Shown: piece after piece, positions 27,603-56,801 of the stretch
How positions within the stretch are numbered: position 1 is the first letter of the stretch
Layout: each line of letters begins with the position of its first letter
Source of the DNA: a virus
Virus record (IMG/VR): IMGVR_UViG_3300032245_001746
Location: 124,001 to 188,000 of that record
Reading direction: 5' to 3' (one strand)
Length of the DNA stretch: 64,000 nucleotides
The notes under the pieces: model-generated
The model's input: only the letters and a program-made list of their open reading frames with translations
The model's database searches: none
Told to the model about the DNA's origin: nothing
Translations under genes and position numbers: made by a program

Positions 27603-28496
27603 ATGAATATATTTGTAACTGGTGGTACTGGATTTATTGGAAATGCAATAGTGCAATGTCTGTCTAAAAATGCAAATAATAAAATATTTGTTTTAGGAAC
27701 TAATAATGAATTAAAATTACCAGTCAATTGTTTTTATTATGATTATAAAAATTTCAATTTAAATAATTTTTTAATTAAAAATAAAATAGATATTTTATAT
27801 CATCAAGCAGCAAATAATAATACTCAAGATAAAAATAAAAAACAAATGTTATTTGATAATTATTATTATTTTTGTGATTTTTTTGATAAATTTTACGAAA
27901 ATGGTTGTAAAAAATATGTTTACGCAAGTTCATGCGCAGTTTATGGAAACTCTAAATCTCCATATATTGAAAATTCAACAGAATTAAATCCTTTAACTTA
28001 TTATGGATTATCTAAAAAATTATTTGATGAATTTGCTATGAACTTCTATTCAGATGCCTCTGTTGTTGGTTTAAGATATTCAAACGTATATGGATTTAAT
28101 GAAAGCCATAAATCTCATAGAGCAAGTATGATTTATCAAATGATAAATAATTTAAGAAAAAATAAAAATCAAAAATTATTTAAAGATGGAAGCCAAAGTA
28201 GAGATTGGATTTTTATAGATGATGTTGTTTTAGCTAATTTATTAGCATTAAATTATAATGGTACTGCAATTTTTAATTGTGGTTCTGGAATTTCTACTTC
28301 ATTTTTAGAAATATTTAATTTTTTAAAAGAAGAATTAAATTCAAATTCTGAAATAGAATTTATATCAAATGATATTGAATCAACATATCAAAATTTTACA
28401 TGTTGTAATATTGATTTAATTAAATCGGCATTAGGATTTCAACCTAAATTTTCAATTTGGAATGGAATGAAAAAAGTCATATCAAATTTGATATGA
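27603..28496 (+). CDS. NAD-dependent sugar epimerase/dehydratase (extended SDR)
   Basis: Rossmann-fold enzyme acting on nucleotide sugars. Seen: the N-terminal dinucleotide-binding TGGTGFIG, YASSCAVYGN, the catalytic YYGLSK (YxxxK) and RYSNVYG, then DGSQSRDWIFIDDVV, the substrate-domain motif seen in ADP-heptose-6-epimerase and UDP-glucose-4-epimerase relatives. 297 aa from ATG 27603; a TTG at 27591 is possible. It could supply sugar donors for the phage glycosyltransferases at 13909, 30994, 32516 and 55423. Confidence 0.9.
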   Translation: MNIFVTGGTGFIGNAIVQCLSKNANNKIFVLGTNNELKLPVNCFYYDYKNFNLNNFLIKNKIDILYHQAANNNTQDKNKKQMLFDNYYYFCDFFDKFYENGCKKYVYASSCAVYGNSKSPYIENSTELNPLTYYGLSKKLFDEFAMNFYSDASVVGLRYSNVYGFNESHKSHRASMIYQMINNLRKNKNQKLFKDGSQSRDWIFIDDVVLANLLALNYNGTAIFNCGSGISTSFLEIFNFLKEELNSNSEIEFISNDIESTYQNFTCCNIDLIKSALGFQPKFSIWNGMKKVISNLI

Positions 28497-28502
28497 CTTT
28501 TT
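28471..28502. terminator. Bidirectional terminator (perfect 32-bp palindrome)
   Basis: Arms 28471-28486 and 28487-28502 are exact complements (AAAAAGTCATATCAAA). It includes the stop of the epimerase gene and lies between two convergent genes, so it can serve both. Confidence 0.8.
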
Positions 28503-28525: not shown

Positions 28526-29131
28526 TTATTTAATCACGTATCCAGTAATTGGATCGATTTTTGGAAGTTCTTCCAAGTTTTCATAATTGTAACTTTTTGG
28601 CAATTCCATCATTTTGCTTAAAGATTGTAAAAATTCAACATCTTCTTTTTTAACTTTTTTATCGTCACACTTTTCGTCTTTTTTGTCTTTTTCTTCTTTC
28701 TTTTCTTTTTTGTCTTTTTTATCGTCACACTTTTCGTCTTTTTTCATTTTCTTTTTCATGAAAAGTTTTTTATCACTTGATTCATCAGATTCATCTGAAT
28801 CTTCATCATCCATTTTATCTCTTAATTCATCATCTGACGATTCTTCGTCTTCTGGTGATTCTTCATTTCCTTTTTCATCATCTTTTTTAGGTAAATCTTT
28901 TTCAGATTTAGGTTTTACTGTTTCTCCGTCGCCTGTTGAATCTAATGGTTTTTCATCTTCTAATTCTTCACCACCATCTAATTCCATTTTCTTTTTCATT
29001 GCTTTCTTTTTTGCTTCTAAAATATCATAAAAAGCAGAAAGATTTGGATTAACAACGCTTTGGGCACTTTTTACACCTAATGATTGATCATAAGATTCAT
29101 TTATTTTTTGCCATTCTCTAAATGTTATCAT
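28526..29131 (-). CDS. Tagged, highly charged low-complexity protein
   Basis: Starts MITFREWQKINES (capsid-targeting-like tag). After about residue 50 the protein is dominated by Lys, Glu, Asp and Ser, with an acidic Ser-rich block (SPEDEESSDDELRDKMDDED) and a Lys block in which KKDEKCDDKK occurs twice. It ends in a more ordinary segment (LPKIDPITGYVIK). Such composition suits a DNA-condensing or space-filling internal head protein, comparable in style to T4 internal proteins. No enzyme domain. Confidence 0.8.
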   Translation of the reverse strand: MITFREWQKINESYDQSLGVKSAQSVVNPNLSAFYDILEAKKKAMKKKMELDGGEELEDEKPLDSTGDGETVKPKSEKDLPKKDDEKGNEESPEDEESSDDELRDKMDDEDSDESDESSDKKLFMKKKMKKDEKCDDKKDKKEKKEEKDKKDEKCDDKKVKKEDVEFLQSLSKMMELPKSYNYENLEELPKIDPITGYVIK

Positions 29132-33403: not shown

Positions 33404-33661
33404 ATGAGAACATTTACTAAATGGTTAGAAGATCACAAATTAGAGTTACCAACATTTTCTGATGTTGAACAAAATTCTGGTAAAGATATAAGTGAAAAAG
33501 CATCTAAAAACTTTGGATTTAACTATCCTGCTGCATACAAACGTGGTCAATATATGGATGACGAAAATTCTCCATCACCTTACTTTATGTCAAAAACAGC
33601 AGACGCACTTTATAAAATGACAGCAAAACCAAGAAAAGAAAAAGATACTGCTGCAAACTGA
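33404..33661 (+). CDS. Small tagged protein
   Basis: 85 aa, starting MRTFTKWLEDHKLE (tag). The remainder is hydrophilic (FGFNYPAAYKRGQYMDDENS) and ends in a basic tail. A strong SD (GAGGG) and its own terminator at 33683 suggest a well-expressed monocistronic gene, as expected for an abundant internal head protein. Confidence 0.78.
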   Translation: MRTFTKWLEDHKLELPTFSDVEQNSGKDISEKASKNFGFNYPAAYKRGQYMDDENSPSPYFMSKTADALYKMTAKPRKEKDTAAN

Positions 33662-33682
33662 TTAAAAATAAATTTTTATTAA

Positions 33683-33720
33683 AAAAATAAAAGCGATTAA
33701 TTATAATCGCTTTTATTTTT
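33683..33720. terminator. Rho-independent terminator, likely bidirectional
   Basis: Perfect 17-bp arms (AAAAATAAAAGCGATTA at 33683-33699, complement at 33704-33720) with a 4-nt loop, between convergent genes. Confidence 0.85.
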
Positions 33721-33722
33721 TA

Positions 33723-34645: not shown

Positions 34646-34663
34646 TTTTTTTTGGACTTACCA

Positions 34664-35980
34664 ATGAGCAAATTAGTAGTTGAAGTTTGTCAAATTTCAA
34701 AAGTTTCTTCTCACCCTAATGCAGATAAACTTGATGTAATTCAAGTTAAAGGCTGGGATACAATTGTTTCAAAGGGTACGTTTAAAGAAGGTGATAAATG
34801 CATATTTTTCCCTCCAGATTCTGTACTTCAACCAGAACTTTATAATTCCCCAAATGATCCTATCACACCTGGAAGATTAAATAATTCAAATTATTTAAAA
34901 ACATTACCAACTGATTTTGAGGGAAATAAACCTAGTGGCAAAAGAGTTACTGCTTGTCGTCTAAGAGGCTCTGTGTCTTATGGATTGGCAATTCCTCTAG
35001 ATTTAAATTATGGCGATTTAGATTGGGATGTAGGCACTGATGTTTCTGAATTTTTTAAAGTAACTAAATACGAGCCACCAGTTGAATCTGTAATGGGCGA
35101 ATGTGAAAAGTTTAATTCAAGATTTTATCCATATAAAAGCATCGAACATTATGCTAATTTTACAGATCTATTTCAAGATGAAGAAGAAGTAATTTTTACC
35201 GAAAAGGTGCATGGAACCAATTCTAGAGTTGGATTAATTTTAGAACCAGACTCAACAGGAAATTCACAATGGACCTATGCCGCAGGTTCTCATTCTGTTA
35301 GAAGAAAAGAGTTTTCCAACATTGAAACCAGAGTTTTAGCTTCAAAACTTGAAGAAAAAAACATTAAAATTCTTAAAAAAGATGACGTTTCTTATTTTAA
35401 AGATGAAAATGGTATTTTTTGGATGATAAATCAAGAGATAATATCAGATATTGGTATGAAATATCAAGTCGTTCAAGTCAATTCAGATTTTGAATTGATT
35501 AAACGTAAATCTGATTATTGGTTACCATTAACAGAAAATATGAAAAATTTATTGAATTATTTAAAAGATAATTTTAAAACTGAAGAAACAATGCACTCTA
35601 TAATGATTTATGGAGAAATATACGGATTTGGAGTTCAAGATATGTGTTATGGTTTAAATCGTAAATCATACAAAGCTTTTGATATTGCTATTAATAATAT
35701 TTATCTTGATTATGATTATCAAATTGAATTATTTAATAAGTTTAACATTGAAGTTGTTCCTGTATTATATAGAGGACCATTTAGTCAAGAAAAAGTTAAA
35801 GAGTTTACTACTGGACCTACAACCATTTGTGATACAAAAAATGCTGGAAAATTTAAAGGAAGAGAAGGAATTGTGATTAAATCTGTTATTGAAAATAAAA
35901 TGTTTAACAAACCTAGAAAAATAGCAAAATCTGTTTCTGCTGATTATTTGTCAAGAGAAAATGGAACAGAGTTTCACTAA
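34664..35980 (+). CDS. RNA ligase, Rnl5/DraRnl-like (OB domain plus nucleotidyltransferase)
   Basis: ATP-dependent ligase that seals RNA ends. The N-terminal ~110 residues are an OB-fold like that of Deinococcus RNA ligase (VCQISKVSSHPNADKLDVIQ, EGDKCIFFPPDSVL). Motif I with the adenylated lysine is TEKVHGTNSRVG (Lys181). Motif IV-like REGIVIKS and a later KIAKSVS motif V complete the core. 438 aa. ATG 34664 is used rather than the TTG at 34652. First gene of the tight unit with Nudix (9 bp gap) and Thg1-like polymerase (4 bp gap), which suggests RNA end repair. Confidence 0.9.
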   Translation: MSKLVVEVCQISKVSSHPNADKLDVIQVKGWDTIVSKGTFKEGDKCIFFPPDSVLQPELYNSPNDPITPGRLNNSNYLKTLPTDFEGNKPSGKRVTACRLRGSVSYGLAIPLDLNYGDLDWDVGTDVSEFFKVTKYEPPVESVMGECEKFNSRFYPYKSIEHYANFTDLFQDEEEVIFTEKVHGTNSRVGLILEPDSTGNSQWTYAAGSHSVRRKEFSNIETRVLASKLEEKNIKILKKDDVSYFKDENGIFWMINQEIISDIGMKYQVVQVNSDFELIKRKSDYWLPLTENMKNLLNYLKDNFKTEETMHSIMIYGEIYGFGVQDMCYGLNRKSYKAFDIAINNIYLDYDYQIELFNKFNIEVVPVLYRGPFSQEKVKEFTTGPTTICDTKNAGKFKGREGIVIKSVIENKMFNKPRKIAKSVSADYLSRENGTEFH

Positions 35981-35989
35981 AGGAAAAAT

Positions 35990-36391
35990 ATGAAATTAGA
36001 ATCTTTTGGAACTTTACTTTATAGAAAAATTAATTCAAAAATAGAAGTTTTACTTGTACACCCATCAGGAAAGTCAGATCAAGCATGGTCTATTCCAAAA
36101 GGAAATAAAAATGATGGTGAAAAAGGAATCGAAGCAGCAGTAAGAGAAACTTTGGAAGAAACTGGAGTTTCAATCAACATTGAAGATTTACATTCATTTG
36201 GTTATGTTGTATATAAATCAAAGAAAGTCGTTCATTGTTATGCGGCTGAAGTGGGTCCAGAAATAAAACCAATTTGTAATTCTTGGGAAGTTGATAAAGC
36301 AGAATTTGTTGAAATAAATAAAACTTTAACAATTATTCATAAAAAACAAGCAGAATTTATTTCTAAATTAATACAACAATTGAAAGTTTAA
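35990..36391 (+). CDS. Nudix hydrolase
   Basis: A complete Nudix box spans residues 38-60: G38, E44, R52-E53, E56-E57, G59 in the pattern Gx5Ex7REUxEExGU. The N-terminus (FGTLLYRKINSKIEVLLVHP) and IPKGNK resemble diadenosine-polyphosphate hydrolases. 133 aa is usual. The placement between RNA ligase and Thg1-like genes suggests clean-up of adenylated, capped or dinucleotide intermediates; ADP-ribose or NAD derivatives are also possible substrates in this NAD-rich cluster. Confidence 0.92.
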   Translation: MKLESFGTLLYRKINSKIEVLLVHPSGKSDQAWSIPKGNKNDGEKGIEAAVRETLEETGVSINIEDLHSFGYVVYKSKKVVHCYAAEVGPEIKPICNSWEVDKAEFVEINKTLTIIHKKQAEFISKLIQQLKV

Positions 36392-36395
36392 AATC

Positions 36396-37400
36396 ATGAA
36401 AATCAAAAAAGATTCTCTCGGAGACAGAATCAAATATTATGAGTCGTTTTGTACAAACACAAGATTATATCATACTATTCCAATTATTATAAGACTTGAT
36501 GGGTGCTCGTTTCATGTCTTTACGAAAGGTTTAAATAGACCATTTGATGAAAGACTTTCTCATTGTATGTTAGAAACAACAAAATTTCTTTGCAAAGAAG
36601 TTAATGCAACTATTGGATATACTCAATCTGACGAAATAACTCTTGTTTTAGGTACTCAAAATTTTGATAGTAAAGTATACTTTGATGCTAAACTTTTTAA
36701 ATTAACTTCTGTTTTAGCTTCTAAGGCAACAGTTAAATTTAACGAGTTGATACGTCAAAATTTACCAGAAAAAGCAAGTAAAAATCCAGTATTTGATTGC
36801 AGGATTTTTAACGTTCCTTCAGAAGAAGAGGCTATTAATTGTTTAATTTGGCGTCAAAATGATGCTAAAAGAAATGCTATTTCAATGGCAGCACAAGCAA
36901 AATTTTCTCACAAAGAATTGCATGGTAAATCTTCTAAGCAAATGTTGGAGATGTTAGAAGCTAAAAATGTTGATTTTAAAAAGTATCCAGGATTTTTCAA
37001 AAATGGAGTTTTTGTTAAAAAGAAAACTTTAACATTCTTAAAAGAATGTTTTGTTAAAATAAATCCAGACAACCTTGTTGTATCCAATAATAGTTTAACT
37101 TCTATTAAAGATTATAGATGGTATATTGAGGAAATTAATTCTAAAAAGTCTATAATTAGATACTCAGATGGATCAATTAATTTAAGTTCTGTAGCTGTAA
37201 CTTATTTAAAATCAGAACAAGAAGCTGAAGATTTAAAAAACTTTATATCTAATGTTTGTGCTAAATTTAGTTTAGAGGATTCTCCAGAATCTTTTACAAG
37301 AAATAATTGGGAAAATGTTTTTGAAGATTTAGAATTATCAAATCTTGAAAACAGAGTTGATTTTGTTTACCGAAACACTGATCCAATTTTTAAAAAGTGA
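36396..37400 (+). CDS. Thg1-like 3'-5' RNA polymerase (tRNA-His guanylyltransferase family)
   Basis: Adds nucleotides in the 3'-5' direction to tRNA 5' ends; bacterial and phage Thg1-like proteins repair truncated tRNAs. Seen: IIIRLDGCSFHVFTKGLNRP (metal-binding Asp35), GYTQSDEITLV (residues 74-83, second metal site Asp79/Glu80) and NAISMAAQAKFSHKELHGKS, all classic Thg1 motifs. 334 aa is slightly longer than typical. It sits 4 bp after Nudix and in the same unit as the RNA ligase, followed by a terminator. Confidence 0.93.
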   Translation: MKIKKDSLGDRIKYYESFCTNTRLYHTIPIIIRLDGCSFHVFTKGLNRPFDERLSHCMLETTKFLCKEVNATIGYTQSDEITLVLGTQNFDSKVYFDAKLFKLTSVLASKATVKFNELIRQNLPEKASKNPVFDCRIFNVPSEEEAINCLIWRQNDAKRNAISMAAQAKFSHKELHGKSSKQMLEMLEAKNVDFKKYPGFFKNGVFVKKKTLTFLKECFVKINPDNLVVSNNSLTSIKDYRWYIEEINSKKSIIRYSDGSINLSSVAVTYLKSEQEAEDLKNFISNVCAKFSLEDSPESFTRNNWENVFEDLELSNLENRVDFVYRNTDPIFKK

Positions 37401-37410
37401 TTTACAATTG

Positions 37411-37446
37411 ACACTGATTGCAAATAGAGTAGTTTGCAATCAGTGT
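37411..37446 (+). terminator. Rho-independent terminator after the RNA-repair unit
   Basis: Perfect 14-bp arms, ACACTGATTGCAAA (37411-37424) and its complement (37433-37446), followed by T-rich sequence. Separates the Thg1-like gene from the nicotinamidase gene. Confidence 0.85.
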
Positions 37447-37470
37447 TTTGTTTTTATTAAAGGGTTTAAA

Positions 37471-38346
37471 ATGAGAAAAATAGATTTGGTAATTATTGAT
37501 CCGCAAAATTCATTTTGCAAAGTTGTTCCACAAGCAGATCAACAAGTTATCCATGATGGAGAACTCTGTGTTCCTGGTGCGTGGGAAAGTATGGCAGTTA
37601 GATTGCCAAAAATGATTGAAAAATCAAAAAAAATGTTTAAGTCAATTAGTGTTACTTTGGATAGCCATAATCCATTCCATATTGCACACCCTTGCTTATA
37701 TAAAGATTCAAAGGGAAATCAACCATCACCATTTACCATCATGCGACAAGAAAATGGTTCAATTATTGGTAGCGTGTTTAATGCATCAACCAATCAATTT
37801 GTTGATGTGGGAGAATATTTTGGTATTAAACCAAGTCTTCACAAAATAATTGTTGAATATTTGATTAAGCTTAAAGCTTTAAACAAATTTCCACATTGTA
37901 TTTGGCCACCACACTGTTTAATTGGAACTTCTGGTCATAATGTTGTACAACCTCTTGCACAAGCTTTGTTTGACTGGACCCAAAGAACAATTGCAAATGT
38001 TGATTATGTTACAAAAGGATCAAATCCTTTCGTTGAACATTTTTCTGCTGTTAAAGCAGAAGTAGAAGATCCGGGAGATCTATCAACACAATTGAATACA
38101 GATTTCATTAAGAAACTCGATGAATCTGACGAGATTGTGTTTGCTGGTGAGGCAAGAAGTCACTGTTTAAATAACACGGTTCGAGATATTGTAGATTCGT
38201 TTTCTGATGATTCTTTCGTTAAGAAATGCGTGTTGCTTCTTGACGCTTGTGATGACGTGCCTGGATTTGAATCATACGGAGAATCTTTTGTTAAAGATAT
38301 GACGGCACGTGGTATGAGAGTTGCTCAAACTACTGATTATGTATAA
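37471..38346 (+). CDS. pncA: Nicotinamidase / isochorismatase-like hydrolase
   Basis: Nicotinamidase converts nicotinamide to nicotinate for NAD+ salvage. Seen: catalytic Asp10 in VIIDPQNSF, metal-binding histidines in LDSHNPFHIAHP, PPHCLIGTSGHNV and the nucleophile Cys232 in GEARSHCLNNTV. 291 aa is longer than typical PncA (about 200), with extra loops. ATG 37471 is chosen because the open upstream extension runs through the terminator and the previous gene. NadE and NadD in the same cluster strongly support the NAD reading; generic isochorismatase activity is the alternative. Confidence 0.82.
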   Translation: MRKIDLVIIDPQNSFCKVVPQADQQVIHDGELCVPGAWESMAVRLPKMIEKSKKMFKSISVTLDSHNPFHIAHPCLYKDSKGNQPSPFTIMRQENGSIIGSVFNASTNQFVDVGEYFGIKPSLHKIIVEYLIKLKALNKFPHCIWPPHCLIGTSGHNVVQPLAQALFDWTQRTIANVDYVTKGSNPFVEHFSAVKAEVEDPGDLSTQLNTDFIKKLDESDEIVFAGEARSHCLNNTVRDIVDSFSDDSFVKKCVLLLDACDDVPGFESYGESFVKDMTARGMRVAQTTDYV

Positions 38347-38365
38347 TTTATAGAAAGGCATAGAA

Positions 38366-39091
38366 ATGTCTAGTGAAAATTTAAGTTCAGGTTTAGATTT
38401 AAATAAAGGTAAAACTTTTAATTTTTCTTCCACAAATATTAATGATCTAGGAGCAGACAGTTATACGCTTGTAACAATAGCTGTCGATACAAGCGGAAGC
38501 ACTTCTTGTTTCATTGATAAAATGGAAAAATTACTTAAAGAAATTGTAAGAGCATGCTCTTTAGATCCAAGAGCAGACAATTTAATGATAAGAATTGTCA
38601 CATTTGATTCACAAGTTTCTGAATTGCATGGCTTTAAACTTTTATCCTCTATCAATCAAGACGATTATCAAGGATCTTTAAGATCAGGCGGAATGACAGC
38701 ATTAAATGATGCTTCTGTCAATTCGATTGAAGGTATCAATAAATATGGAAGAGATTTGCTCGAAAAAGAATTTGGAGTAAACGGATTTTTTATCTGTATA
38801 ACAGATGGTCAAGATAATCAATCGGCTTTACCAGCCTCACGAGTTGCATCTTCTTTAAAAGAATCTGTCAATGGAGAAAACTTGGAATCAATGCTTTCAA
38901 TTTTAATTGAACTTGGTGATTCGACTGAATTGGACAGATTCTACAACGAAGTAGGATTTGATCAACATGTTAAAATTGAAGATGTAACCGAGTCTTCTTT
39001 TGCAAAACTTGCTGGATTTATTAGTAAATCAATCAGTAGTCAAAGCCAAGCCTTAAACAGTGGAGGACCAAGTAAGCCTCTTACATTTTAA
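38366..39091 (+). CDS. TerY-like von Willebrand factor A domain protein
   Basis: The metal-ion-dependent adhesion site is complete: DTSGS (residues 41-45), Thr111 in SGGMTALND and Asp147 in ITDGQDN. 241 aa, essentially one vWA domain, no signal peptide. It starts 19 bp after the nicotinamidase gene with an SD (AAAGG). The same unit contains a PP2C phosphatase and a kinase, giving the three components of the TerY-P triad described by Anantharaman, Iyer and Aravind. Likely a signalling scaffold; partners unproven. Confidence 0.87.
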   Translation: MSSENLSSGLDLNKGKTFNFSSTNINDLGADSYTLVTIAVDTSGSTSCFIDKMEKLLKEIVRACSLDPRADNLMIRIVTFDSQVSELHGFKLLSSINQDDYQGSLRSGGMTALNDASVNSIEGINKYGRDLLEKEFGVNGFFICITDGQDNQSALPASRVASSLKESVNGENLESMLSILIELGDSTELDRFYNEVGFDQHVKIEDVTESSFAKLAGFISKSISSQSQALNSGGPSKPLTF

Positions 39092-39175
39092 TTTTTGTAA
39101 ATAATAAATGTTATTACTCAGATATCTTATCAGATTCAACTATATAAAATTATATAATTTGATAAGGAGTTTAAT

Positions 39176-39923
39176 TTGATTAATTATAGATTTGGTGATT
39201 GGACGGTAATAAAAAAAGTAACAAATATTGAAAAAACAAAAAATTGTAAAACTTATTGGATTTGTCGTTGTAAGTGTGGTTTTGAAAGAAATTTCACTAC
39301 TTCTTACATTAATACAAATCAAGCAACATGTTGTGATCAATGTAAATTTGAAATTAAATTGTCTAAAGATAAAGAAATTCGCGAAAAATATTTAAATACC
39401 AAACATGGAACTTGGGAAGTAATTTCATATTGTGGTAAAAATAAGCATGGTAGTCGCATTTGGATGTGCAGATGCGAGTGTGGAAAAGAAAGAACTTTTT
39501 TAACATCTTATCTTTCTGGAAACGGAAAAAGATCTGCACAAATATGCAAAAATTGTGAATTGAAAAATTTAGAATTAGAAAATAGAATTTTTTTATATAC
39601 CTGATAGATTTTGGTATAAATTTACAAATTCATCACAACGCAGGAACAAATCTGTAGAGATAACAAAAGAACAAGCTAATGATATTTATTTGAAACAAAA
39701 TAAAAAATGTGCATATACGAATATAGATTTATATTTTACTAAATTTAATACTAATTTTAACAGATATACAAATGCATCAATTGATAGAATTGATTCTAGT
39801 AAACCATATACGCTGGAAAATATTCAGTGGGTTGATAAAAAAATTAATATTATGAAAAGTTCTTATAAATCAGAAGAATTTATTAAACTGTGCTGTTTGG
39901 TATCGAAAAAATTTACATTTTGA
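39176..39923 (+). pseudogene. HNH homing endonuclease broken by a frameshift
   Basis: The first frame (39176-39604, TTG start with SD AAGGAG 8 bp upstream) encodes two Cys-rich zinc modules (WICRCKCG ... CDQC and WMCRCECG ... CKNC). It stops just after a T7 run at 39588-39594. One base over, the frame continues without a gap: DRFWYKF, EITKEQANDIYLKQNKKCAY and the HNH-type SIDRIDSSKPYTLENIQWVD, ending at 39923. A one-base change in the T7 run restores a single protein of about 250 residues. Either a pseudogene, a sequencing error or, less likely, programmed slippage. It sits between the vWA gene and nadE. Confidence 0.82.
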
Positions 39924-39942
39924 TTTTTCAATCAATTGAAAC

Positions 39943-39984
39943 AAAGCCGTTCGAATGAGATTTACTTTTCATTCGAACGGCTTT
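39943..39984 (+). terminator. Rho-independent terminator-like hairpin before nadE
   Basis: Perfect 16-bp arms AAAGCCGTTCGAATGA (39943-39958) and its complement (39969-39984) with a 10-nt loop. No long T-run follows, so termination may be partial, or it may act as a processing site. Confidence 0.7.
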
Positions 39985-40031
39985 ATCATTTGGTGTCTGC
40001 TTTATTTGTTGAATTTTTAAGGAAATTGAAA

Positions 40032-42068
40032 ATGGAAGATCTTATTAGAGTTGCATGTTGTTCACCCGAAGTTTTTGTTTCTAATCCTGTTAAAAACAGA
40101 ATTGAAATATTGAAGGCAATAAATAAACATGCAAAAAATGCTGATGTTATCGTGTTTCCAGAATTATCTATTACAGGATATACTTGTAAAGATTTATTTC
40201 TTAAAGAAGAATTGTTAAATTCAAGTTTGAAAGAAGTTATAAATTTAGCAAAGGAAATTCCAAGAAACAAATTAGTATTTGTTGGTTGCCCATTACAATT
40301 AAGTAATGGCAAAATAGCTAATTGTGCATTTGGACTTAATGATGGAGTTATTAAAGGCATTGTTCCAAAACAATATTTGCCAAATTATAAAGAATTTGAA
40401 GAAAAAAGATGGTTCACTCAGGATTTAACGGAAGAAATTGATATTGTTTTAGAAAACAATTGTCATGTTCCTTTTGGTTCTAATATTATTTTTCTTTTTG
40501 GAAAAGCAAGAATGGCTGCAGAGGTATGTGAAGATTTATTTGCTCCAATTCCACCATCTACATTTACCGCTATGGCTGGAGCAAATATAATTGTAAATTT
40601 GAGTGCTTCAAATGAACTTATTGGAAAAGCAGAATATAGAAGAAAGTTGGTCGAACAACAAAGTGCCAGAACTCTATCTGCATATATTTATTGTTCTGCT
40701 GGTCCAACTGAATCAACCACCGATTTAGTTTTTGGTGGTCATAATATTATTTCAGAAAATGGTTCTATTTTAAAACAAAGTGAAAGATTTAAAGATTTTT
40801 CATATATCGAATATGATATTGATGTCCAGAAACTTAATCTTGAAAGAAGTGGTAATCCAACTTTTTCTGATTGTCAAAAAAGATTTGTTAAACCTGAAAA
40901 TTTCACATGGGTTCCTATTAATTTGAATCCAAATTTAAAACAAGATATTTTAAGACCAAAAGTTAAAAATCCATTTTTGTCTAATGACCCACAGGTGATG
41001 GAATCAGTATGTGATGAAATTATAAATATTCAAATATGTGCTTTAAAGAAAAGACTAAGTAGACTATCAAGTAGTAAAACTGTAATTGCGGTTTCTGGAG
41101 GATCTGATTCTACTGTAGCTTTATTGTCACTATGTGCAGCATATGATTCAATTGGATTTTCAAGAAAAGACATTTTGGGTATTACCATGCCAGGTTTTGG
41201 AACAAGTAACAGAACCAAAAATAATTCAGATGCTTTAATGGCGAGTCTTGGAATTACTCAAAAAGTAATTGATATTAAGCCAACAGCAACACAAACTTTC
41301 ATTGATATGAATCATATTCCATTCAAAGATTATAATATAACTATAGATGGAATAGAAATGAGCGTTGAAGAATATTTCAGAGGCAAACCTTCTAATTTAA
41401 CAGTTGAAGAAATTAGTAAAGTTCTAAATTATTTGCCTTCAAACGCTAAAGATTTAACGTTTGAAAATGTTCAAGCTAGACTTCGCACATTTTATGCAAT
41501 GAGTAGCGGATTTACTGTTGGAACTGGGGATTTATCAGAAGCAGCACTTGGTTGGTGTACATATAATGGTGATCATATGTCTATGTATAATCCTAATTGT
41601 ACTATTCCAAAAACATTGATTAAGTCATTAATTTTACATTTTGCTAATAATTATTCAAATTATTTCACTCAAGAACTTGGTGGAGATTTAAGTAAAATAT
41701 TAAATTCAATTTATGAAACTGTCATATCTCCAGAACTTTTGCCTTTAAAAGATGGCGAGATTGTTCAGTCTTCTGAAGAAAGTGTTGGATCTTACAACTT
41801 AAATGATTTTTTCTTATATAACTTTATCAGAAACAATTTTTGTTTTTCTAAAATATTAGATTATGCTGTACACTCATATGAAGATGAATATACTAAAGAA
41901 GAAATTGAAAAGTGGTTGAAGTTATTTTTTAAGAGATTTTTTCAGGCACAGTTTAAACGTTCTTGCTGTCCAGATGGACCAAAAGTAGGATCAGTAGGAT
42001 TATCACCAAGAGGTGATTGGAGAATGCCATCAGATGCAGATTTTGATTTATGGTGCAACAATGAATGA
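40032..42068 (+). CDS. nadE: Glutamine-dependent NAD+ synthetase
   Basis: Makes NAD+ from nicotinate adenine dinucleotide, ATP and glutamine. The N-terminal nitrilase-type glutaminase has its triad Glu44 (VFPELS), Lys113 (VPKQYLPNY) and Cys166 (AAEVCEDLF). The C-terminal synthetase has the ATP pyrophosphatase loop SGGSDS (355-360) and GTGDLSEAALGWCTYNGDH. 678 aa, full length. ATG 40032 (SD AAGGAAA) is chosen; the frame's upstream extension crosses the hairpin. It overlaps the next gene by 8 bp and so leads the NadE/PP2C/NadD/kinase unit. Confidence 0.96.
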   Translation: MEDLIRVACCSPEVFVSNPVKNRIEILKAINKHAKNADVIVFPELSITGYTCKDLFLKEELLNSSLKEVINLAKEIPRNKLVFVGCPLQLSNGKIANCAFGLNDGVIKGIVPKQYLPNYKEFEEKRWFTQDLTEEIDIVLENNCHVPFGSNIIFLFGKARMAAEVCEDLFAPIPPSTFTAMAGANIIVNLSASNELIGKAEYRRKLVEQQSARTLSAYIYCSAGPTESTTDLVFGGHNIISENGSILKQSERFKDFSYIEYDIDVQKLNLERSGNPTFSDCQKRFVKPENFTWVPINLNPNLKQDILRPKVKNPFLSNDPQVMESVCDEIINIQICALKKRLSRLSSSKTVIAVSGGSDSTVALLSLCAAYDSIGFSRKDILGITMPGFGTSNRTKNNSDALMASLGITQKVIDIKPTATQTFIDMNHIPFKDYNITIDGIEMSVEEYFRGKPSNLTVEEISKVLNYLPSNAKDLTFENVQARLRTFYAMSSGFTVGTGDLSEAALGWCTYNGDHMSMYNPNCTIPKTLIKSLILHFANNYSNYFTQELGGDLSKILNSIYETVISPELLPLKDGEIVQSSEESVGSYNLNDFFLYNFIRNNFCFSKILDYAVHSYEDEYTKEEIEKWLKLFFKRFFQAQFKRSCCPDGPKVGSVGLSPRGDWRMPSDADFDLWCNNE

Positions 42069-42312
42069 ATATGAAGACGAATCTTATTATCAAACTTATA
42101 TTGGATTGATAGAATATTTAAAACTTCATGATTATAAAAGAATCTATTTAGCTAACATGATGTCTCTCCACAAAGATGATATTAAAAAAATGAATTTGTT
42201 TATGTCATTTGATGAAATTCTTGTATCATCAAATGACCAAATAAATTTAACTATAGAAAAAATACAAAAAGCTTTTAATATTAATTTGAAAAAAGGAAAT
42301 GTTCAAATATGA
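42061..42312 (+). CDS. Small protein embedded in the NAD/signalling unit
   Basis: 83 aa (MNEYEDESYYQTYIGLIEYL...), overlapping NadE by 8 bp and the PP2C gene by 4 bp (ATGA), so clearly translated with them. KRIYLANMMSLHKDDIKKMN and a Lys-rich end suggest an alpha/beta fold. No family recognised; may be an accessory of NadE or PP2C. Confidence 0.72.
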   Translation: MNEYEDESYYQTYIGLIEYLKLHDYKRIYLANMMSLHKDDIKKMNLFMSFDEILVSSNDQINLTIEKIQKAFNINLKKGNVQI

Positions 42313-43109
42313 TTTTTAATCAAGATAATTTTTTATCAATTGGAAGTACGCATGAAATATGTCAAGATTATTCATTGCTTAATGATAAATTTATTGCCGT
42401 ATCAGATGGTTGTTCCGGAAGTAATTTAAGTGATTATGGATCTAGAATTATAACAAAATCTTCTTTAAATAATCAAAACAATTTTGAAGATAAAGAAGCT
42501 TTTGTTAAAACAACAATTAATTCTTCAAAAGAAATTATAAATCATCTTGAACTTCAAGAAGATTGTCTTTGTGCAACATTATTGGCTTGTAAGGCAAATG
42601 AAGATTTTTTTGATGTTTTAATTTGTGGTGATGGAACCATAGTTTGTGAAGATAAATCAAATAATTTGCATGTTTATGAATATTCATATGAATCAGGTGC
42701 TCCTTTTTACCCATTATATCTTCAAAATAAAGATTTAATAAAATTATATTTAGAAAAATTTGGATCATATCACACTTTGAATTATTATAAATATAATTTA
42801 ATAAATTTTGATTTGATTGAGTTTACAACTAGTAAAATTCCCATTAATGAAAATTTAAATACACATAAGTTTCCAACATCTGAATTTATTAGTGTTGCTT
42901 TATTTTCTGATGGTTTGAATTCATTTCAAGTGAAATCAAATAAAACGATTTATTCAAGCAAAAAAGTTCTACAGGATTTGTATGATTTTAAAGGATACAC
43001 TGGTAGATTCTTACTGAGAAGATGCAGAAAGCAGTTCTCTATTTTTGAACAAAATGGTATATCTCATTACGATGATTTTTCTATGGCTATGATAAGGACA
43101 TTAAATTGA
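42309..43109 (+). CDS. PP2C-type serine/threonine phosphatase
   Basis: Metal-dependent phosphatase. Seen: FIAVSDGCSGSNLSDYGSRI (first Asp/Gly metal motif), VLICGDGTIVC, ALFSDGLNSF (motif with SDG) and HYDDFSMAMI (final Asp of the site). 266 aa. It is coupled to NadD downstream (ATGA overlap at 43106) and precedes a kinase in the same unit, so kinase and phosphatase probably act on the same target, with the vWA protein as the third partner. Confidence 0.88.
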   Translation: MIFNQDNFLSIGSTHEICQDYSLLNDKFIAVSDGCSGSNLSDYGSRIITKSSLNNQNNFEDKEAFVKTTINSSKEIINHLELQEDCLCATLLACKANEDFFDVLICGDGTIVCEDKSNNLHVYEYSYESGAPFYPLYLQNKDLIKLYLEKFGSYHTLNYYKYNLINFDLIEFTTSKIPINENLNTHKFPTSEFISVALFSDGLNSFQVKSNKTIYSSKKVLQDLYDFKGYTGRFLLRRCRKQFSIFEQNGISHYDDFSMAMIRTLN

Positions 43110-43666
43110 AAAAAGTTGTTATCTTTGGAACATCTGGAAACCCAATCCATATTGGACATGAATTAATAATTAAAGAAATTTCTAAACATTTTGATGAAGT
43201 GTGGGTTTGTCCTTCTTATAAATCATCAATTAAAAATTTAATTGATTCAAAACACAGATTGAAAATGACTGAAATTTCGGTTAATTCGTTAAATAACGAT
43301 AAAGTTAAAATTTTTGACCATGAAATAAAAAATAAAATTTCCGTAAACACATATGATTTTTTAAAATATTTAAAATCCACTTTCTCAGATAAACAATTTT
43401 ACTTTGGTATAGGTGCAGATAACACTAAAGATATATTAAATTGGAAAAATTCAAATGATCTTATAAATGAAAACAACTTTTTAATCTTTAAAAGAAAAGG
43501 TTATGATTTAAATGTAAATATTTTTAAATCATATGAGACAATTGATGTTGAATTTATTGATGTGAGTTCTACTTATATAAGAAATAATATTAGAAATGAA
43601 AATGTTAAAAGTCTTCTGAATCCAGAAGTTTACAATTACATTGTTGAAAACAATCTCTATTTTTAG
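43106..43666 (+). CDS. nadD: Nicotinate/nicotinamide mononucleotide adenylyltransferase
   Basis: Transfers AMP to nicotinate mononucleotide, the step before NadE. Seen: FGTSGNPIHIGH (residues 7-18, nucleotidyltransferase HxGH with His15 and His18) and VSSTYIRNNIR (the ISSTxxR motif). 186 aa is standard for NadD. It overlaps PP2C by 4 bp and is 7 bp from the kinase gene. Together with nicotinamidase and NadE it covers all but one step (nicotinate phosphoribosyltransferase) of the Preiss-Handler route. Confidence 0.93.
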   Translation: MKKVVIFGTSGNPIHIGHELIIKEISKHFDEVWVCPSYKSSIKNLIDSKHRLKMTEISVNSLNNDKVKIFDHEIKNKISVNTYDFLKYLKSTFSDKQFYFGIGADNTKDILNWKNSNDLINENNFLIFKRKGYDLNVNIFKSYETIDVEFIDVSSTYIRNNIRNENVKSLLNPEVYNYIVENNLYF

Positions 43667-43673
43667 GTGAATC

Positions 43674-45392
43674 ATGAAGTATTTTATAAAAGGTGGCGAC
43701 TCAGTAGATCTTTCTCAAAAAGATTTTATTGCATCTGGTGGTTTTGGCAAAGTTTATAAAAAAAATAATTTTGCATACAAAATATATGATAATCCATCCA
43801 ATATGCTTCCAATTGAAAAAATATCAGAATTAGCAGTATTAAAAGATCAAGATATAATAAAGCCAGAGAGAATAATTACAAATTCATCTAAAGAATTTGT
43901 AGGTTACACAATGCGTTACGTAAAAGGTTCTCCTATATGCAAAATGTTTACACACACTTTCAAAAAGAACAATAAAATAACAGACAAAATTTGTTTATCG
44001 CTTTTGAGCAAATTTTATACAAAAATAGAACATGTACATTCTAACAATATTTTGTTGGTAGACGTAAACGAACTTAATTTTTTAGTAAATGATTCGTTTA
44101 ACGAAATTTATTTTATAGATACAGATGGCTATCAAACTAAATCATTTAAAGCCACTGGCATAATGGATAGTATTAGAGATCGACATTGTCAAAATAATGA
44201 CTTTAATGAAAATACTGATTGGTTTTCTTGGGGAATACTTGCTTGTCAATTAATTACTGGACTCCACCCTTATCGTGGAGGGCATCCTGATTTTGACAAT
44301 ATTGATCTTGCTAAAAGAATGGATGCAAGAATGATTAAAAATATTTCTATTTTTAATTCAAAAACCAAACTTCCTCCTTTTATTAAAAATTTTGATAATA
44401 TTCCATCTGCACTTAAACAATGGTTTATTTCAGTTTTTGAAAATGGCAAAAGGATTAAACCTCCAAAAGACTTTGACTCAGTAATTATATTGACTCCAAT
44501 TAATGTAAAGGAAATAACAGGAACAAACTTATTTGATATATCTTTACTTTATTCTTTCAAACAAGAATTAATTAAATATAAAGAAATAAATGGAGATAAA
44601 TTTGCATTGTTGAATGATAAATTAATTTTTAACGATAAGTCTTACAATATTCCAAATGTAAAATCTGAATTGTTTTTTAATGTTCCATCTTCTTTAAATA
44701 AACCATTTGTTTATTACATAGAAAATGAAACATTAAAATGTTTTGATTGCATTTATCAAACAGAAATTGAATGTTCTTTAAAATCTACTGATATTTTTCA
44801 AGTTGATGATAGAATTTATTATGTAAATAAAGATAAATTTTATGAAATTGAAATTATTAAATTATCAAATAAAGTAATTGTTGAATCTAATTCTGTAGGA
44901 AATGCATTAGATATTCCTAATGCAACCAAATCATTTGATGGAACATTAATGCAAAACATGTTGGGAAGACATTATTTTTCAATTAATCCTAAATCTAGAT
45001 TCAGCTATCAAATAGGAATTAAAGAATTAGATTCTTATACAGTTATTGATGCGAAATATGAAAAAAATGTTTTAATAGTTTCTGCAATTACCAGAAAAGG
45101 TATTAATGAAAAATTTGTAATTAGATTTAATTCTAATTATACTTCTTATTCTTTAAGAAAGATATCTAATGTTCAAAATTCTGATGTTAATTTTACAGTA
45201 AATCAATCTGGAATTTGCATATTCCTAGTTGATGACTCAAATATAGAAATATTTTCTAATAATTCTGAGACAACTTCTGTTAAATCATTTAATGATCAAA
45301 GTATAGATACTAGTATGATCCTAACATCCAATGCATCAAAAGTAATGTTTGTAAAAGATAAATCAGTTTATTCTATATCTGTTAAAAACTAA
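43674..45392 (+). CDS. Serine/threonine kinase-like protein of the vWA-PP2C-kinase triad
   Basis: Residues 18-38 form the Gly loop and ATP-binding Lys (IASGGFGKVYKKNNF, AYKIY, Lys36). The catalytic region reads VHSNNILLVDVNELNFLV with YFIDTDGYQT for the metal motif. This 'D(V/L)N..NfLv ... IDTDsyQ' form, without HRD, is characteristic of kinases in TerY-P triads. DWFSWGILACQLITGLHPYR is a normal kinase C-lobe. From about residue 290 to 572 a beta-rich, possibly propeller, domain follows. It closes the unit started by NadE. Confidence 0.86.
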   Translation: MKYFIKGGDSVDLSQKDFIASGGFGKVYKKNNFAYKIYDNPSNMLPIEKISELAVLKDQDIIKPERIITNSSKEFVGYTMRYVKGSPICKMFTHTFKKNNKITDKICLSLLSKFYTKIEHVHSNNILLVDVNELNFLVNDSFNEIYFIDTDGYQTKSFKATGIMDSIRDRHCQNNDFNENTDWFSWGILACQLITGLHPYRGGHPDFDNIDLAKRMDARMIKNISIFNSKTKLPPFIKNFDNIPSALKQWFISVFENGKRIKPPKDFDSVIILTPINVKEITGTNLFDISLLYSFKQELIKYKEINGDKFALLNDKLIFNDKSYNIPNVKSELFFNVPSSLNKPFVYYIENETLKCFDCIYQTEIECSLKSTDIFQVDDRIYYVNKDKFYEIEIIKLSNKVIVESNSVGNALDIPNATKSFDGTLMQNMLGRHYFSINPKSRFSYQIGIKELDSYTVIDAKYEKNVLIVSAITRKGINEKFVIRFNSNYTSYSLRKISNVQNSDVNFTVNQSGICIFLVDDSNIEIFSNNSETTSVKSFNDQSIDTSMILTSNASKVMFVKDKSVYSISVKN

Positions 45393-46592: not shown

Positions 46593-46797
46593 TGCGTGCT
46601 TTCTGATCAAAATTGTGAATTGCACAATTGCAAATATGGCAATTTATATCAAAATTGCCATATTTATCTTGCCAGAACCAAGCGTTTTTTAATTGTTTAG
46701 AATTTTGACAACTTTCGCATATCGCAACTACAACTTGCTCTTCAAAAGGCACAGAATTGTCTATCCAAAAATAACATGGTTTATTGTGCATAAACAA
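46573..46797 (-). CDS. Small zinc-binding protein
   Basis: 74 aa with CESCQNS ... CHICNCAIHN, a two-CxxC zinc pattern. Its end overlaps the Dam start by 20 bp. Probably co-expressed with Dam and the thioredoxin gene 10 bp upstream. No family recognised. Confidence 0.7.
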   Translation of the reverse strand: MFMHNKPCYFWIDNSVPFEEQVVVAICESCQNSKQLKNAWFWQDKYGNFDINCHICNCAIHNFDQKARNDKRKN

Positions 46798-47433: not shown

Positions 47434-48309
47434 ATGAAAACATTTAGTAAATATATAGAAAATCAAAATATTGAAGGTAAAATTGTACAAATAGCTACAA
47501 TATTGTCAGAATCTAATTTAGAGCCAAATATCTTTTTAAAAACATGGTTTGACAAAAATGATCCTGATTTATCCTTAGTATTAACTGAAGCTGGAATGTG
47601 GGATGGTATAAAACAAGGAATAGGCGCAGTTGGTGCTGGTCTCAAACAAGGATTTCAAAATTTTAAAAATAATGCTTTCGGACCAGAAACACATTATACA
47701 AATGCGGTCACATCATTAAATAAACTTCTTAATTTCATTGAAGCAGATCCAAATTTAAAACAAAATTATTCAAGATTTACAAATAACATTAGCGGAATAT
47801 TAAATGATTTAAAAGCAAATCAAGGTGATGTTCCAATGAGCAATAATGGTCAATGGACATCAAGAAATCAAAATTCTTTCAATAATGTTAATCCTCAACA
47901 ACCAGTTCAGCCACAGCCTAATGTTCAACAACAATCACAACCTCAACAACCTGCTCCTGTGCAACAACAATCTAATTCGATGTATGATGTGAACGCAAGA
48001 GCAAAAGCTAAAAGAGCAGGACAAAATCAACCTCAGTTTCAATCACAATCACAACAAGTGAATCAACAACTTCCACAGTCTCACCAACAACAAAATCAAT
48101 TGCCACCTGGACTACAACCAGTTAGTGGCTTAACAAGTGGATCGCATCCAGATAATTATGCTTGGAACCCAAATTCTAATACTTATATGTTTAAAAAATG
48201 GAATCCAAAAACAAAAAGTTATTCTTGGGAACGCACCAATAGAATAATGGGTAATAATCATAATAACAACAAAGTTCAGAGCGATATTGAATGGCTTAGA
48301 AATCAATAA
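47434..48309 (+). CDS. Tagged Gln/Pro-rich low-complexity protein
   Basis: 291 aa. Starts MKTFSKYIENQNIE (tag). Residues ~60-140 are helical (WDGIKQGIGAVGAGLKQGF), then a long Gln/Pro/Asn-rich linker (QQPVQPQPNVQQQSQ). The C-terminus (YAWNPNSNTYMFKKWNPKTK) is aromatic and basic. SD GGAG. A likely internal head or scaffold-type protein. No enzyme motif. It is followed 8 bp later by the next tagged gene. Confidence 0.78.
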   Translation: MKTFSKYIENQNIEGKIVQIATILSESNLEPNIFLKTWFDKNDPDLSLVLTEAGMWDGIKQGIGAVGAGLKQGFQNFKNNAFGPETHYTNAVTSLNKLLNFIEADPNLKQNYSRFTNNISGILNDLKANQGDVPMSNNGQWTSRNQNSFNNVNPQQPVQPQPNVQQQSQPQQPAPVQQQSNSMYDVNARAKAKRAGQNQPQFQSQSQQVNQQLPQSHQQQNQLPPGLQPVSGLTSGSHPDNYAWNPNSNTYMFKKWNPKTKSYSWERTNRIMGNNHNNNKVQSDIEWLRNQ

Positions 48310-48317: not shown

Positions 48318-48491
48318 ATGTTATTAACATATAAACAATGGTGCGAAAATATGTGGGGAAACACTCCATCTAACATGAGAAAACCTTCTGATGGTTGGGC
48401 ATGTAAACAGAGTTATTCTTCGAATAGTTCTTCAGCAGGTAGTGGTAGTCAACCAATGCAAAAAAGTATGAAAAAGAAAATGAAGAAATAA
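48318..48491 (+). CDS. Very small tagged protein (57 aa)
   Basis: Begins MLLTYKQWCENMWG (tag) and ends in a Lys-rich tail (MKKKMKK). SD GGAAAA just upstream, and a perfect terminator palindrome starts at its stop codon. Ser/Gly/Gln-rich middle. Probably a small internal head protein co-transcribed with the previous gene. Confidence 0.75.
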   Translation: MLLTYKQWCENMWGNTPSNMRKPSDGWACKQSYSSNSSSAGSGSQPMQKSMKKKMKK

Positions 48492-48520
48492 AAAAAGCCA
48501 CAGTTAACTGTGGCTTTTTT
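48491..48520. terminator. Bidirectional terminator (perfect 30-bp palindrome)
   Basis: AAAAAAGCCACAGTT at 48491-48505 pairs exactly with 48506-48520. Lies between convergent genes. Confidence 0.88.
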
Positions 48521-50166: not shown

Positions 50167-50203
50167 GAAAATGCATGATGAAAATTTTTCATCATGCATT
50201 TTC
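50167..50203. terminator. Bidirectional terminator
   Basis: GAAAATGCATGATGAAAA (50167-50184) pairs with 50186-50203, loop of 1 nt. Its right arm includes the 3' end of the minus-strand gene that stops at 50192. Confidence 0.85.
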
Positions 50204-50548
50204 GTTATAATGAAATAAAATTTGATTAGCTATTTTTTTACTAGAATTGTTTTTTATTTTTAGCAACAAATTGTATAATTCTTTATAATTCTTTTTATCT
50301 AAGTATCTTAAACAAGCTGCTGTTAAAGATCCAATTGGAGACTTTTCTGTTATTCTACTACCAGTCATTACTTTAATTTTTTCAATTGATAATGGAAATT
50401 TAAATAAAAATAACTCCCCAGACAGATCTTGCATGTGCTGTGCAGAAATAGGATTTCGCAATATTTTTTGCATTAAACTTTCATCAGGAGAATCATACCA
50501 ATCTTCTGATTCCTCTTTGTAAAACCAAGATTTAAATGAAACAATCAT
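50192..50548 (-). CDS. Tagged protein of unknown function
   Basis: 118 aa, starting MIVSFKSWFYKEES (tag). Mostly helical, with MTGSRITEKSPIGSLTAACL in the middle. No known domain. Its ATG lies inside the left arm of the palindrome at 50541-50591, and no Shine-Dalgarno is visible. Ends at the Hsp20 terminator. Confidence 0.75.
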   Translation of the reverse strand: MIVSFKSWFYKEESEDWYDSPDESLMQKILRNPISAQHMQDLSGELFLFKFPLSIEKIKVMTGSRITEKSPIGSLTAACLRYLDKKNYKELYNLLLKIKNNSSKKIANQILFHYNENA

Positions 50549-50591
50549 AGTTTTTTATATATTGTTTTAATATATAAAAAACTATGATTGT
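50541..50591. repeat. Perfect inverted repeat carrying two divergent start codons
   Basis: Arms of 23 bp (50541-50563 and 50569-50591) are exact complements with a 5-nt loop. Each arm contains the ATG and first codons (ATGATTGT) of the gene that runs outward from it. AATATATAAAAAACT precedes each ATG. No SD lies between. Confidence 0.88.
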
Positions 50592-51600
50592 TCTTGATTT
50601 TAAATTATTTATAGAAAACGAAAAAATGGAAAATATACCTAAAGGAAAACTTTTTGGTTTAGACGCGAAACGTGTATCTACTCAAGAATTAGAATTGGTG
50701 GTACAAGAATTAAGAAAATTAATTGGAAGTAATTTTTCTTATTTTGAAAGAGTTGATTCGTTAAAAGAAAAACATGATCATGGAGATATAGATATTTTGG
50801 TAATTCCTCCATTGAATATTAAACAATTATTAAATGATTCAATTCCCGAAAAAGTTTTAAAATTTTCTAAAAATGATTGCGTAAATTCATTTTTGTTTCA
50901 ATCTGAATATGTGAACAAAAATGTTCATGTTGATTTAATAACTTGTGAAAATAAAGAAAAATTACAATCTAAGAAATATTATTATGGATTAAACGATTTT
51001 TCAGCTTTGGTTGGAGTTTTATCTAAAAAATTAAACTTTAAATATGGAACTGAAGGGTTTTTCAAAAGGTTTAAAGATAAAAAAGGAAATTGGCATGATG
51101 TTTTTATTACTTTTAATTTATTAAAAGGACTAGAAATATTGGGATTTGATATATCTTTATATAATAAAATTAAAAATTATAATGATATAGCAGAATTTGT
51201 GCTTACAAGTCCATTGTTTGATTATAGATTTTTTACACAAGATGCTTTATTAGCTAGAGATAGAGTCTCACTTGGAAGGCGTCCTAATTTAGAACAAATG
51301 ATTAATTTTGTAATTAAATCAAATAAAACCGCAACTATTACTGATGAAGATCATTTCTTTAAGAAATTAATGCCAGAACAATATAAAAAATGTCAAGAAG
51401 AAATGAAAGAAATAAATAATAAAACTTATGAAATTGCAAATAAATACAATGGATCTTGGTTAATGTTAAATTTTGGCTTAAAGCCAGGTCCAGATGTCGG
51501 CAAAATCTTGAAATTAATGAATGATAAATTTAAAGAAAATTTACCAAATGCTGATGAGCAAGAAGTAGTTAATTTCGTAAAATTAAATTTAAACAAATAA
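50584..51600 (+). CDS. Tagged nucleotidyltransferase (pol-beta fold, CCA-enzyme-like tail)
   Basis: Starts MIVLDFKLFIENEK (tag). HGDIDILVIPP is the pol-beta-type DxD metal site and VHVDLIT supplies the third acidic residue. The C-terminal GPDVGKILKLMNDKFKENL resembles the tail of bacterial CCA-adding tRNA nucleotidyltransferases. 338 aa. A packaged enzyme that adds nucleotides to RNA, possibly host or phage tRNA, is a plausible reading but not proven. The ATG lies in the palindrome described above. Confidence 0.82.
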   Translation: MIVLDFKLFIENEKMENIPKGKLFGLDAKRVSTQELELVVQELRKLIGSNFSYFERVDSLKEKHDHGDIDILVIPPLNIKQLLNDSIPEKVLKFSKNDCVNSFLFQSEYVNKNVHVDLITCENKEKLQSKKYYYGLNDFSALVGVLSKKLNFKYGTEGFFKRFKDKKGNWHDVFITFNLLKGLEILGFDISLYNKIKNYNDIAEFVLTSPLFDYRFFTQDALLARDRVSLGRRPNLEQMINFVIKSNKTATITDEDHFFKKLMPEQYKKCQEEMKEINNKTYEIANKYNGSWLMLNFGLKPGPDVGKILKLMNDKFKENLPNADEQEVVNFVKLNLNK

Positions 51601-56489: not shown

Positions 56490-56801
56490 TTAAACTTTCT
56501 TAACAGTAAATACAAATTGTGCTGGATAATCTGAATGTGACTCATAATATGCTGGCTTTTGATAAGTGACTTTCCATCCACTTTCTTCATAAAATGGTTC
56601 TATATCAAGATATTTGTTTTTATACACATCATCTTCACTTATGTTCATAACTTTTTTTATCTCGCAAACAACTTTATCTTGATAAACAATAGATTTATTA
56701 TTGTTAAAATTTTTAGCAATTTCTTTATTGAAAATTTCAATTATTCTTTCATCAATAAATTTATTTTCAATAACTTCTTTTGGAGTAATTGGTTTAATCA
56801 T
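56490..56801 (-). CDS. Hypothetical phage protein
   Basis: 103 aa. An N-terminal helix (IIEIFNKEIAKNFNNNKSIV) and a C-terminal beta-rich part (YEESGWKVTYQKPAYYESHS, FVFTVKK). The pattern is familiar from large phage genomes, but I can give no function. Its start overlaps the preceding tagged gene by 8 bp. Confidence 0.7.
   Translation of the reverse strand: MIKPITPKEVIENKFIDERIIEIFNKEIAKNFNNNKSIVYQDKVVCEIKKVMNISEDDVYKNKYLDIEPFYEESGWKVTYQKPAYYESHSDYPAQFVFTVKKV

Follow-up and report, generated by a model that had tools for sequence, protein, structure and literature searches.

What might explain why a phage keeps a nicotinamidase gene beside genes for a kinase, a phosphatase and a vWA protein? 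The question is raised by a gene block in a 64,000-nucleotide window, bases 124001-188000 of the 319,857-bp IMG/VR virus record IMGVR_UViG_3300032245_001746; coordinates below are window positions. The block encodes a PncA-like nicotinamidase, a TerY-like vWA protein, a PP2C phosphatase and a Ser/Thr-type kinase, here called the quartet, together with genes for NAD+ synthesis. To judge from their sequences, the four proteins form a tightly conserved unit carried by huge phages. As to its role, we lean, with confidence no better than even, towards a phosphorylation-controlled NAD+ salvage module: the presence, order and conservation of the genes, their catalytic residues and the enrichment of NAD+ genes around them are read from the sequence, and control by phosphorylation is proposed. 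We prefer this reading because the quartet recurs in nearly every related locus, NAPRTase genes lie close to the kinase, catalytic residues are intact and a Variovorax megaplasmid repeats the set. Its use would probably be against NAD+-depleting defences.

Single-sequence scans with the Thg1-like protein or the kinase gave no viral relatives, and an alignment of the kinase was required. Used as query, this alignment recovered 74 viral loci, and 64 non-redundant ones were kept, the window and 63 others retrieved with two short patterns; component-specific profiles were then applied. PncA, vWA, PP2C and kinase genes all lie on one strand in 61 of the 64 loci, and in the order PncA-vWA-PP2C-kinase in 58, with a median span of 3.9 kb between the midpoints of the outer genes. 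Of the three incomplete loci, L204 and L207 run into contig ends, and L243 has a partial kinase match only. The median pairwise identity of the quartet kinases is 34%, they form 41 clusters when grouped at >50% identity, and local GC content ranges from 27 to 65%; the idea that the quartet is a trait of one narrow phage clade was rejected on the number of kinase clusters and the spread of GC content. That gene order is kept across such diverged phages argues for a grouping beyond chance, and pairwise identities within the quartet correlate at 0.52-0.77. In an independent collection of 50,697 phage records the kinase matches four, and PncA matches those same four. All are uncultured, with genomes of 595, 485 and 462 kb among them, and each carries a contiguous quartet with the gene order given above; the genes of the LR756500 quartet touch or overlap one another. 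In the named phage records that were searched, only uncultured phages have the quartet, which may explain its being overlooked.

How well are the individual proteins preserved? The window PncA is weak by Pfam (E 0.003, below the cut-off), and its family profile matches the yeast nicotinamidase 2h0r (E 1.6e-11). The catalytic triad D10, K182 and C232 and the metal ligands D64, H66 and H148 are invariant in 61 loci. These features point to a nicotinamidase, with nicotinamide as its presumable substrate. A PncA tree parts quartet from non-quartet enzymes weakly (59/61 vs 3/32, support 0.52) and is not relied on. The window vWA protein has no Pfam match; the D, S, T and D of its metal ion-dependent adhesion site (MIDAS) are invariant in 62 loci, and its serine-rich C-terminal tail is strikingly conserved. 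The metal-binding aspartates of PP2C are invariant in 63 loci, and the catalytic K, D, N and D of the kinase are conserved in 64. An AlphaFold2 model of the kinase (predicted local distance difference test score 87) has a kinase domain and an all-beta C-terminal half. The top solved-structure matches of the model are to LRRK2, in which a kinase is followed by WD40 repeats, several viral matches are P22 gp10-type proteins, and we read the C-terminal half as a predicted beta-propeller.

In the window, the block is laid out as follows.

34652-37400, plus strand: RNA-repair trio (Rnl5-type ligase, Nudix and Thg1-like proteins), from Pfam/TIGRFAM profiles, outside the module
37411-37446, plus strand: terminator-like hairpin in the gap between Thg1 and PncA
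37471-38346, plus strand: PncA-like nicotinamidase, quartet gene 1, from the profile match to 2h0r and invariant residues
38366-39091, plus strand: TerY-like vWA protein with MIDAS and invariant serine-rich C-terminal tail, quartet gene 2
39176-39923, plus strand: frame-broken HNH endonuclease element at the place of NAPRTase (PncB) in relatives, matching HNH/endonuclease PHROGs in two frames
39943-39984, plus strand: strong stem-loop directly 5' of NadE (-33.6 kcal/mol for 39924-40010, z -7.9)
40032-42068, plus strand: NadE, glutamine-dependent NAD+ synthetase of the ~680-residue type with glutaminase domain (NF002730, 729 bits)
42058-42312, plus strand: 84-residue protein p83 between NadE and PP2C, sub-threshold matches only
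42309-43109, plus strand: PP2C phosphatase, quartet gene 3 (PF13672, E 1e-11)
43106-43666, plus strand: NadD, nicotinate-nucleotide adenylyltransferase (TIGR00482, 126 bits, cut-off 112)
43674-45392, plus strand: Ser/Thr-type kinase of 572 residues with a C-terminal predicted beta-propeller, quartet gene 4 (PF00069, 34.0 bits, cut-off 31.7)

NadE, p83 and NadD thus lie between quartet genes, and the gene after the kinase is on the opposite strand. An initial annotation, made from the letters of the window, had named these genes on this strand and in these places, with a broken HNH gene and overlaps of 4-8 bp from NadE to NadD. Profile matches and coordinates agree with it as to the genes, and the two HNH pieces in different frames as to the break; the overlaps were nearly right, measuring 11 bp for NadE/p83, 4 bp for p83/PP2C and 4 bp for PP2C/NadD. 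The 84-residue protein has no counterpart at the NadE-PP2C place in L003-L006.

Is the company of NAD+ genes a peculiarity of this phage? Neighbour families around the 64 loci were formed without prior choice of genes, and their identities were then assigned by Pfam. After the quartet itself, the most frequent are NadE (28 loci), NAPRTase (27), Nudix (19) and NadD (16), then an open reading frame (ORF) family without Pfam match (10), NADAR (9) and NAD-dependent DNA ligase (8). By profile count, at least one of NAPRTase, NadE and NadD lies near the quartet in 37 of the 64 loci, and PncB, NadE and NadD are interleaved with the quartet in L003-L006, L185 and L188. Jumbo phages commonly carry NAD+ salvage genes (PMC9503650), so it is closeness to the kinase, and not mere presence, that counts. 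Of 42 kinase-bearing records, 26 have a NAPRTase-family gene somewhere, and in 15 of those 26 it lies within 10 kb of the kinase, with 2.5 expected under uniform placement (P ~5e-10, a figure that ignores phage relatedness). The link that the initial annotation drew between the NAD+ genes and the vWA-PP2C-kinase triad therefore holds well beyond this phage, in that quartet order is kept and NAD+ genes are enriched nearby.

The same distances bear on a simpler explanation, namely plain metabolic support: the salvage genes would sustain NAD+ levels while the phage replicates in poor hosts, and the kinase and phosphatase, as a general regulator of host takeover, would only by chance share the same auxiliary-gene region. 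That salvage genes are so common in jumbo phages, that they are listed as auxiliary metabolic genes (PMC13384950) and that NAD-dependent DNA ligase occurs near the quartet in 8 loci all fit such a role. However, 61 of 64 loci have the triad together with the nicotinamidase, too strict an association for chance, and NAPRTase occurs close to the kinase at six times the frequency expected from uniform placement; we consider incidental co-location unlikely. Several observations nevertheless weigh against a salvage module. In about 40% of the quartet loci NAPRTase, NadE and NadD are all missing from the neighbourhood, LR745208 (485 kb) is without any NAPRTase-family gene, and many huge phages carry PncB/NadE clusters without the triad. 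A PF04095 search of the whole source record also found no NAPRTase or NAMPT. Furthermore, pairwise identities of NAPRTase and NadE correlate at 0.73, whereas those of quartet and NAD+ genes correlate moderately (0.25-0.57), and this weaker correlation between the groups indicates that the quartet and the NAD+ genes are two loosely joined modules that often meet.

The NAPRTase missing from this record is present in its relatives. NadE has relatives of 42-48% identity in eight viral contigs, which have much of the window gene order in common. In six of the eight, a gene of ~400 residues immediately precedes NadE or is parted from it by a small gene. Two of these six genes were tested against Pfam and are NAPRTases (PF04095, E 5e-67 and 3e-65), the six have 49-58% identity to one of the NAPRTases so tested, and PncB is present in L002, L003, L005, L006, L007 and L009. 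The order in relatives such as L003-L006 is PncA-vWA-PncB-NadE-PP2C-NadD-kinase, and these phages appear to carry the complete Preiss-Handler route interleaved with the triad. In the window the broken HNH element occupies the place of the relatives' NAPRTase, and no PncB remnant was found in the window, at the HNH place included. Outside the window the record was covered by targeted searches and by two 20-kb flanks, which hold no additional quartet or NAD+ genes. Of the Preiss-Handler enzymes, this phage thus has PncA, NadD and NadE by sequence, and PncB is absent from the record; it has either been lost or is kept in an unassembled part. NadD and NadE could still use nicotinate mononucleotide (NaMN) supplied by the host.

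How does the triad relate to bacterial systems? The quartet kinase profile matched 4 of 594 bacterial genomes, a sample from two phyla, over the kinase domain alone. Each match belongs to a vWA-PP2C-kinase triad, and the flanks examined contain neither PncA nor NAD+ synthesis genes. The quartet PP2C and kinase profiles match the PP2C and kinase of all four triads, and the vWA profile matches one of their vWA proteins (E 2e-5). In TerY-P, vWA and PP2C are accompanied by a zinc-ribbon kinase, and versions with an OB-fold kinase are stand-alone antiphage systems (PMC11090510); that paper cites Anantharaman et al. 2012 for the triad. The phage triad is TerY-P-like: the same three protein types are encoded together, and the vWA MIDAS and the PP2C and kinase catalytic residues are intact. 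Unlike TerY-P, however, the phage kinase is predicted to end in an all-beta propeller and not in a zinc ribbon or OB-fold, a nicotinamidase gene almost always precedes the phage triad, and NAD+ synthesis genes lie nearby. At E 0.01 none of the window vWA, PP2C and kinase proteins is matched by the PADLOC TerY-P models. We rejected the idea that the triad is simply a chance copy of a host TerY-P, given the near-obligate PncA and the propeller.

The bacterial relatives also invite the view that the quartet is itself a phage-borne TerY-P-like system for defence or superinfection exclusion. The triad would then sense a rival phage or nucleic acid, the nicotinamidase would be the effector or would relieve nicotinamide inhibition of an NAD+-using effector, and closeness to salvage genes would be secondary. 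In keeping with this, the bacterial relatives found are TerY-P-type triads, their OB-fold-kinase counterparts stand alone as antiphage systems (PMC11090510), and the kinase weakly matches PADLOC PD-T4-6 kinase models. On the other hand, the unbiased neighbour count links no nuclease, toxin or killing gene to the quartet, the linked genes being ones that make or repair NAD+, and the kinase has a propeller in place of an OB-fold or zinc ribbon. A defence system is, in our estimate, an improbable explanation.

The only cultured carrier of the quartet that was found is the 801-kb megaplasmid of Variovorax sp. SRS16, with similar matches in strains PBL-E5 and PBL-H6. Here PncA-vWA is followed ~20 kb further on by PP2C-kinase-pncB and in turn by NADAR and nadE; all of these share one strand, and genes for NAD kinase, Nudix and macro-domain proteins lie nearby. 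The megaplasmid copies offer a cultured route for testing the module. The region at ~560-677 kb of this megaplasmid (NZ_LR594667.1; L256, L259 and L260) carries a huge-phage-like collection of pncB, NADAR, NAD+ synthase, macro domain, AlkB, Nudix and quartet genes, and these huge-phage-like metabolic genes adjoin plasmid and insertion sequence (IS) genes.

How would a phosphorylation-controlled salvage module work? Nicotinamide would be released by NAD+-destroying immune effectors or by the phage's own NAD+ use. PncA would convert it to nicotinate, and PncB, NadD and NadE would take nicotinate through NaMN and nicotinate adenine dinucleotide (NaAD) to NAD+; in this phage the PncB step would be supplied by the host. 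The kinase with its propeller and PP2C would be the opposing writers of a phospho-switch, and the vWA protein a metal-dependent scaffold, its invariant serine-rich tail a likely substrate. The switch may set the activity of PncA or of salvage, or act on host targets, during infection. The most specific version of this proposal, that the kinase-propeller, phosphatase and vWA scaffold of huge phages, and of one or more bacterial megaplasmids, control the nicotinamidase, so that nicotinamide released by NAD+-destroying immunity triggers a regulated Preiss-Handler rescue of NAD+, is tentative, and we think it more likely to be wrong than right. If true, phage NAD+ restoration would be regulated and not only enzymatic, forming a further, phospho-regulated class, and TerY-P-type phosphosignalling would gain a concrete metabolic partner in the nicotinamidase that is nearly always with the phage triad.

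Does RNA repair belong to the same unit? The initial annotation had joined RNA repair, NAD+ synthesis and the triad in one counter-defence island. The RNA-repair proteins themselves are identified by profiles: the Rnl5-type ligase by TIGR02306 (157.8 bits, above the cut-off of 151.15) and PF09414 (E 3e-18), the Nudix protein by PF00293, and the Thg1-like polymerase by PF04446 (E 1e-30, 106.6 bits vs a cut-off of 29.2), with Thg1 relatives present in 125 phage records. All genes of the supposed island share one strand, and six of the eight closest contigs have an Rnl5-family gene upstream. However, the Rnl5-type ligase family is near the quartet in only 6 of the 64 loci, and both Rnl5 and Thg1 are sporadic there outside the close clade L002-L009. 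Within that clade both recur, the whole region is syntenic, and ligase adjacency therefore says little. The terminator-like hairpin moreover parts Thg1 from PncA. Because of this hairpin and the sporadic linkage, we rejected RNA repair as part of the module, and a single island seems to us very improbable. The two hairpins, at 37411-37446 and ~39943-39984, argue against a single transcript for the block, and the stem-loop before NadE may split the quartet of this phage over two transcripts. L006 (4656-5792) and L007 (3006-4223) have in common a protein of ~380-400 residues without Pfam match, encoded before PncA where other relatives have Thg1; the L006 protein shows weak similarity to a portion of NadE (E 8e-4).

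Phage pathways of NAD+ restoration are already known, namely NARP1, consisting of Adps and Namat (PMC12774641), and NadV with NadM/NadR (PMC9503650). Like the module proposed here, they rebuild NAD+ from its cleavage products with phage-encoded enzymes, but the present module has the deamidating Preiss-Handler route (PncA, PncB, NadD and NadE) and a kinase-phosphatase set. The general scans annotated no block gene as Adps or Namat, no search having been aimed at these families, and PF04095 finds no NARP2/NadV-NadR-type phosphoribosyltransferase of the NAPRTase/NAMPT family in this record. Among isolates, Xanthomonas phage X1 carries pncB, nadM, nadD, nadE and NAMPT, listed as auxiliary genes for which a role against NAD+ depletion has been suggested (PMC13384950, 2026), and pncB is annotated in Atu_ph07 and Phosso. 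These isolates are similar in having pncB, nadD and nadE; they differ in giving no match to the quartet PncA, vWA or kinase in the phage collection, a comparison that covered the isolates other than X1. The E. coli kinase YegI is reversed by PphC (YegK), a PP2C phosphatase encoded by the adjacent gene (PMC13232886), and so resembles the quartet in pairing a Ser/Thr kinase with a neighbouring opposing phosphatase, but that report describes neither a nicotinamidase nor a tie to NAD+; this comparison is by description only. A nicotinamidase-vWA-PP2C-kinase set was not found described in the literature searched, most subscription journals lying outside its reach. The suggestion of the initial annotation that the mix looks undescribed thus stands, within that literature, for the NAD+ genes with the triad and is not supported for RNA repair, which we place outside the unit. 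Many viral contigs (NAPRTase loci L090-L169) cluster NAPRTase, NadE and PncA-like genes without a vWA-PP2C-kinase triad, and phages thus seem to carry clusters for deamidating NAD+ salvage more often than one would suppose from the literature found.

As to the source phage more generally, the phage collection holds no near match to the window DNA, and no NAD-dependent DNA ligase was found in the record. The window has no tRNA, an Rfam scan of it found neither an RNA family nor an intron, and a scan for sigma-70-like promoters gave a site count not above that in shuffled sequence. GC content reaches 46% at 18001-20000, vs 25-30% around it, within a 1661-residue ORF (17143-22128) without PHROG match. 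Further hairpins with perfect stems of 13-24 bp lie at 9931-9964, 22819-22858, 28471-28502, 33682-33721, 46632-46665, 48491-48520, 50167-50203 and 50540-50592; mostly intergenic or at gene ends, such long perfect hairpins look like gene-end signals of the source phage. A shared leader resembling MxxFKxWxxxxE opens 15 of the 80 predicted window proteins (7 of 212 in an internal-methionine control), and is reminiscent of the capsid-targeting leaders of T4 internal proteins. The leader-bearing proteins, of which that at 10267-11148 looks kinase-like, are encoded at:

4712-5236, 10267-11148, 11157-11759, 11749-12495, 15511-15870, 28526-29131, 33404-33661, 47434-48309
50192-50548, 50584-51600, 51628-51984, 52018-54153, 56794-57804, 59528-60292, 62319-63101

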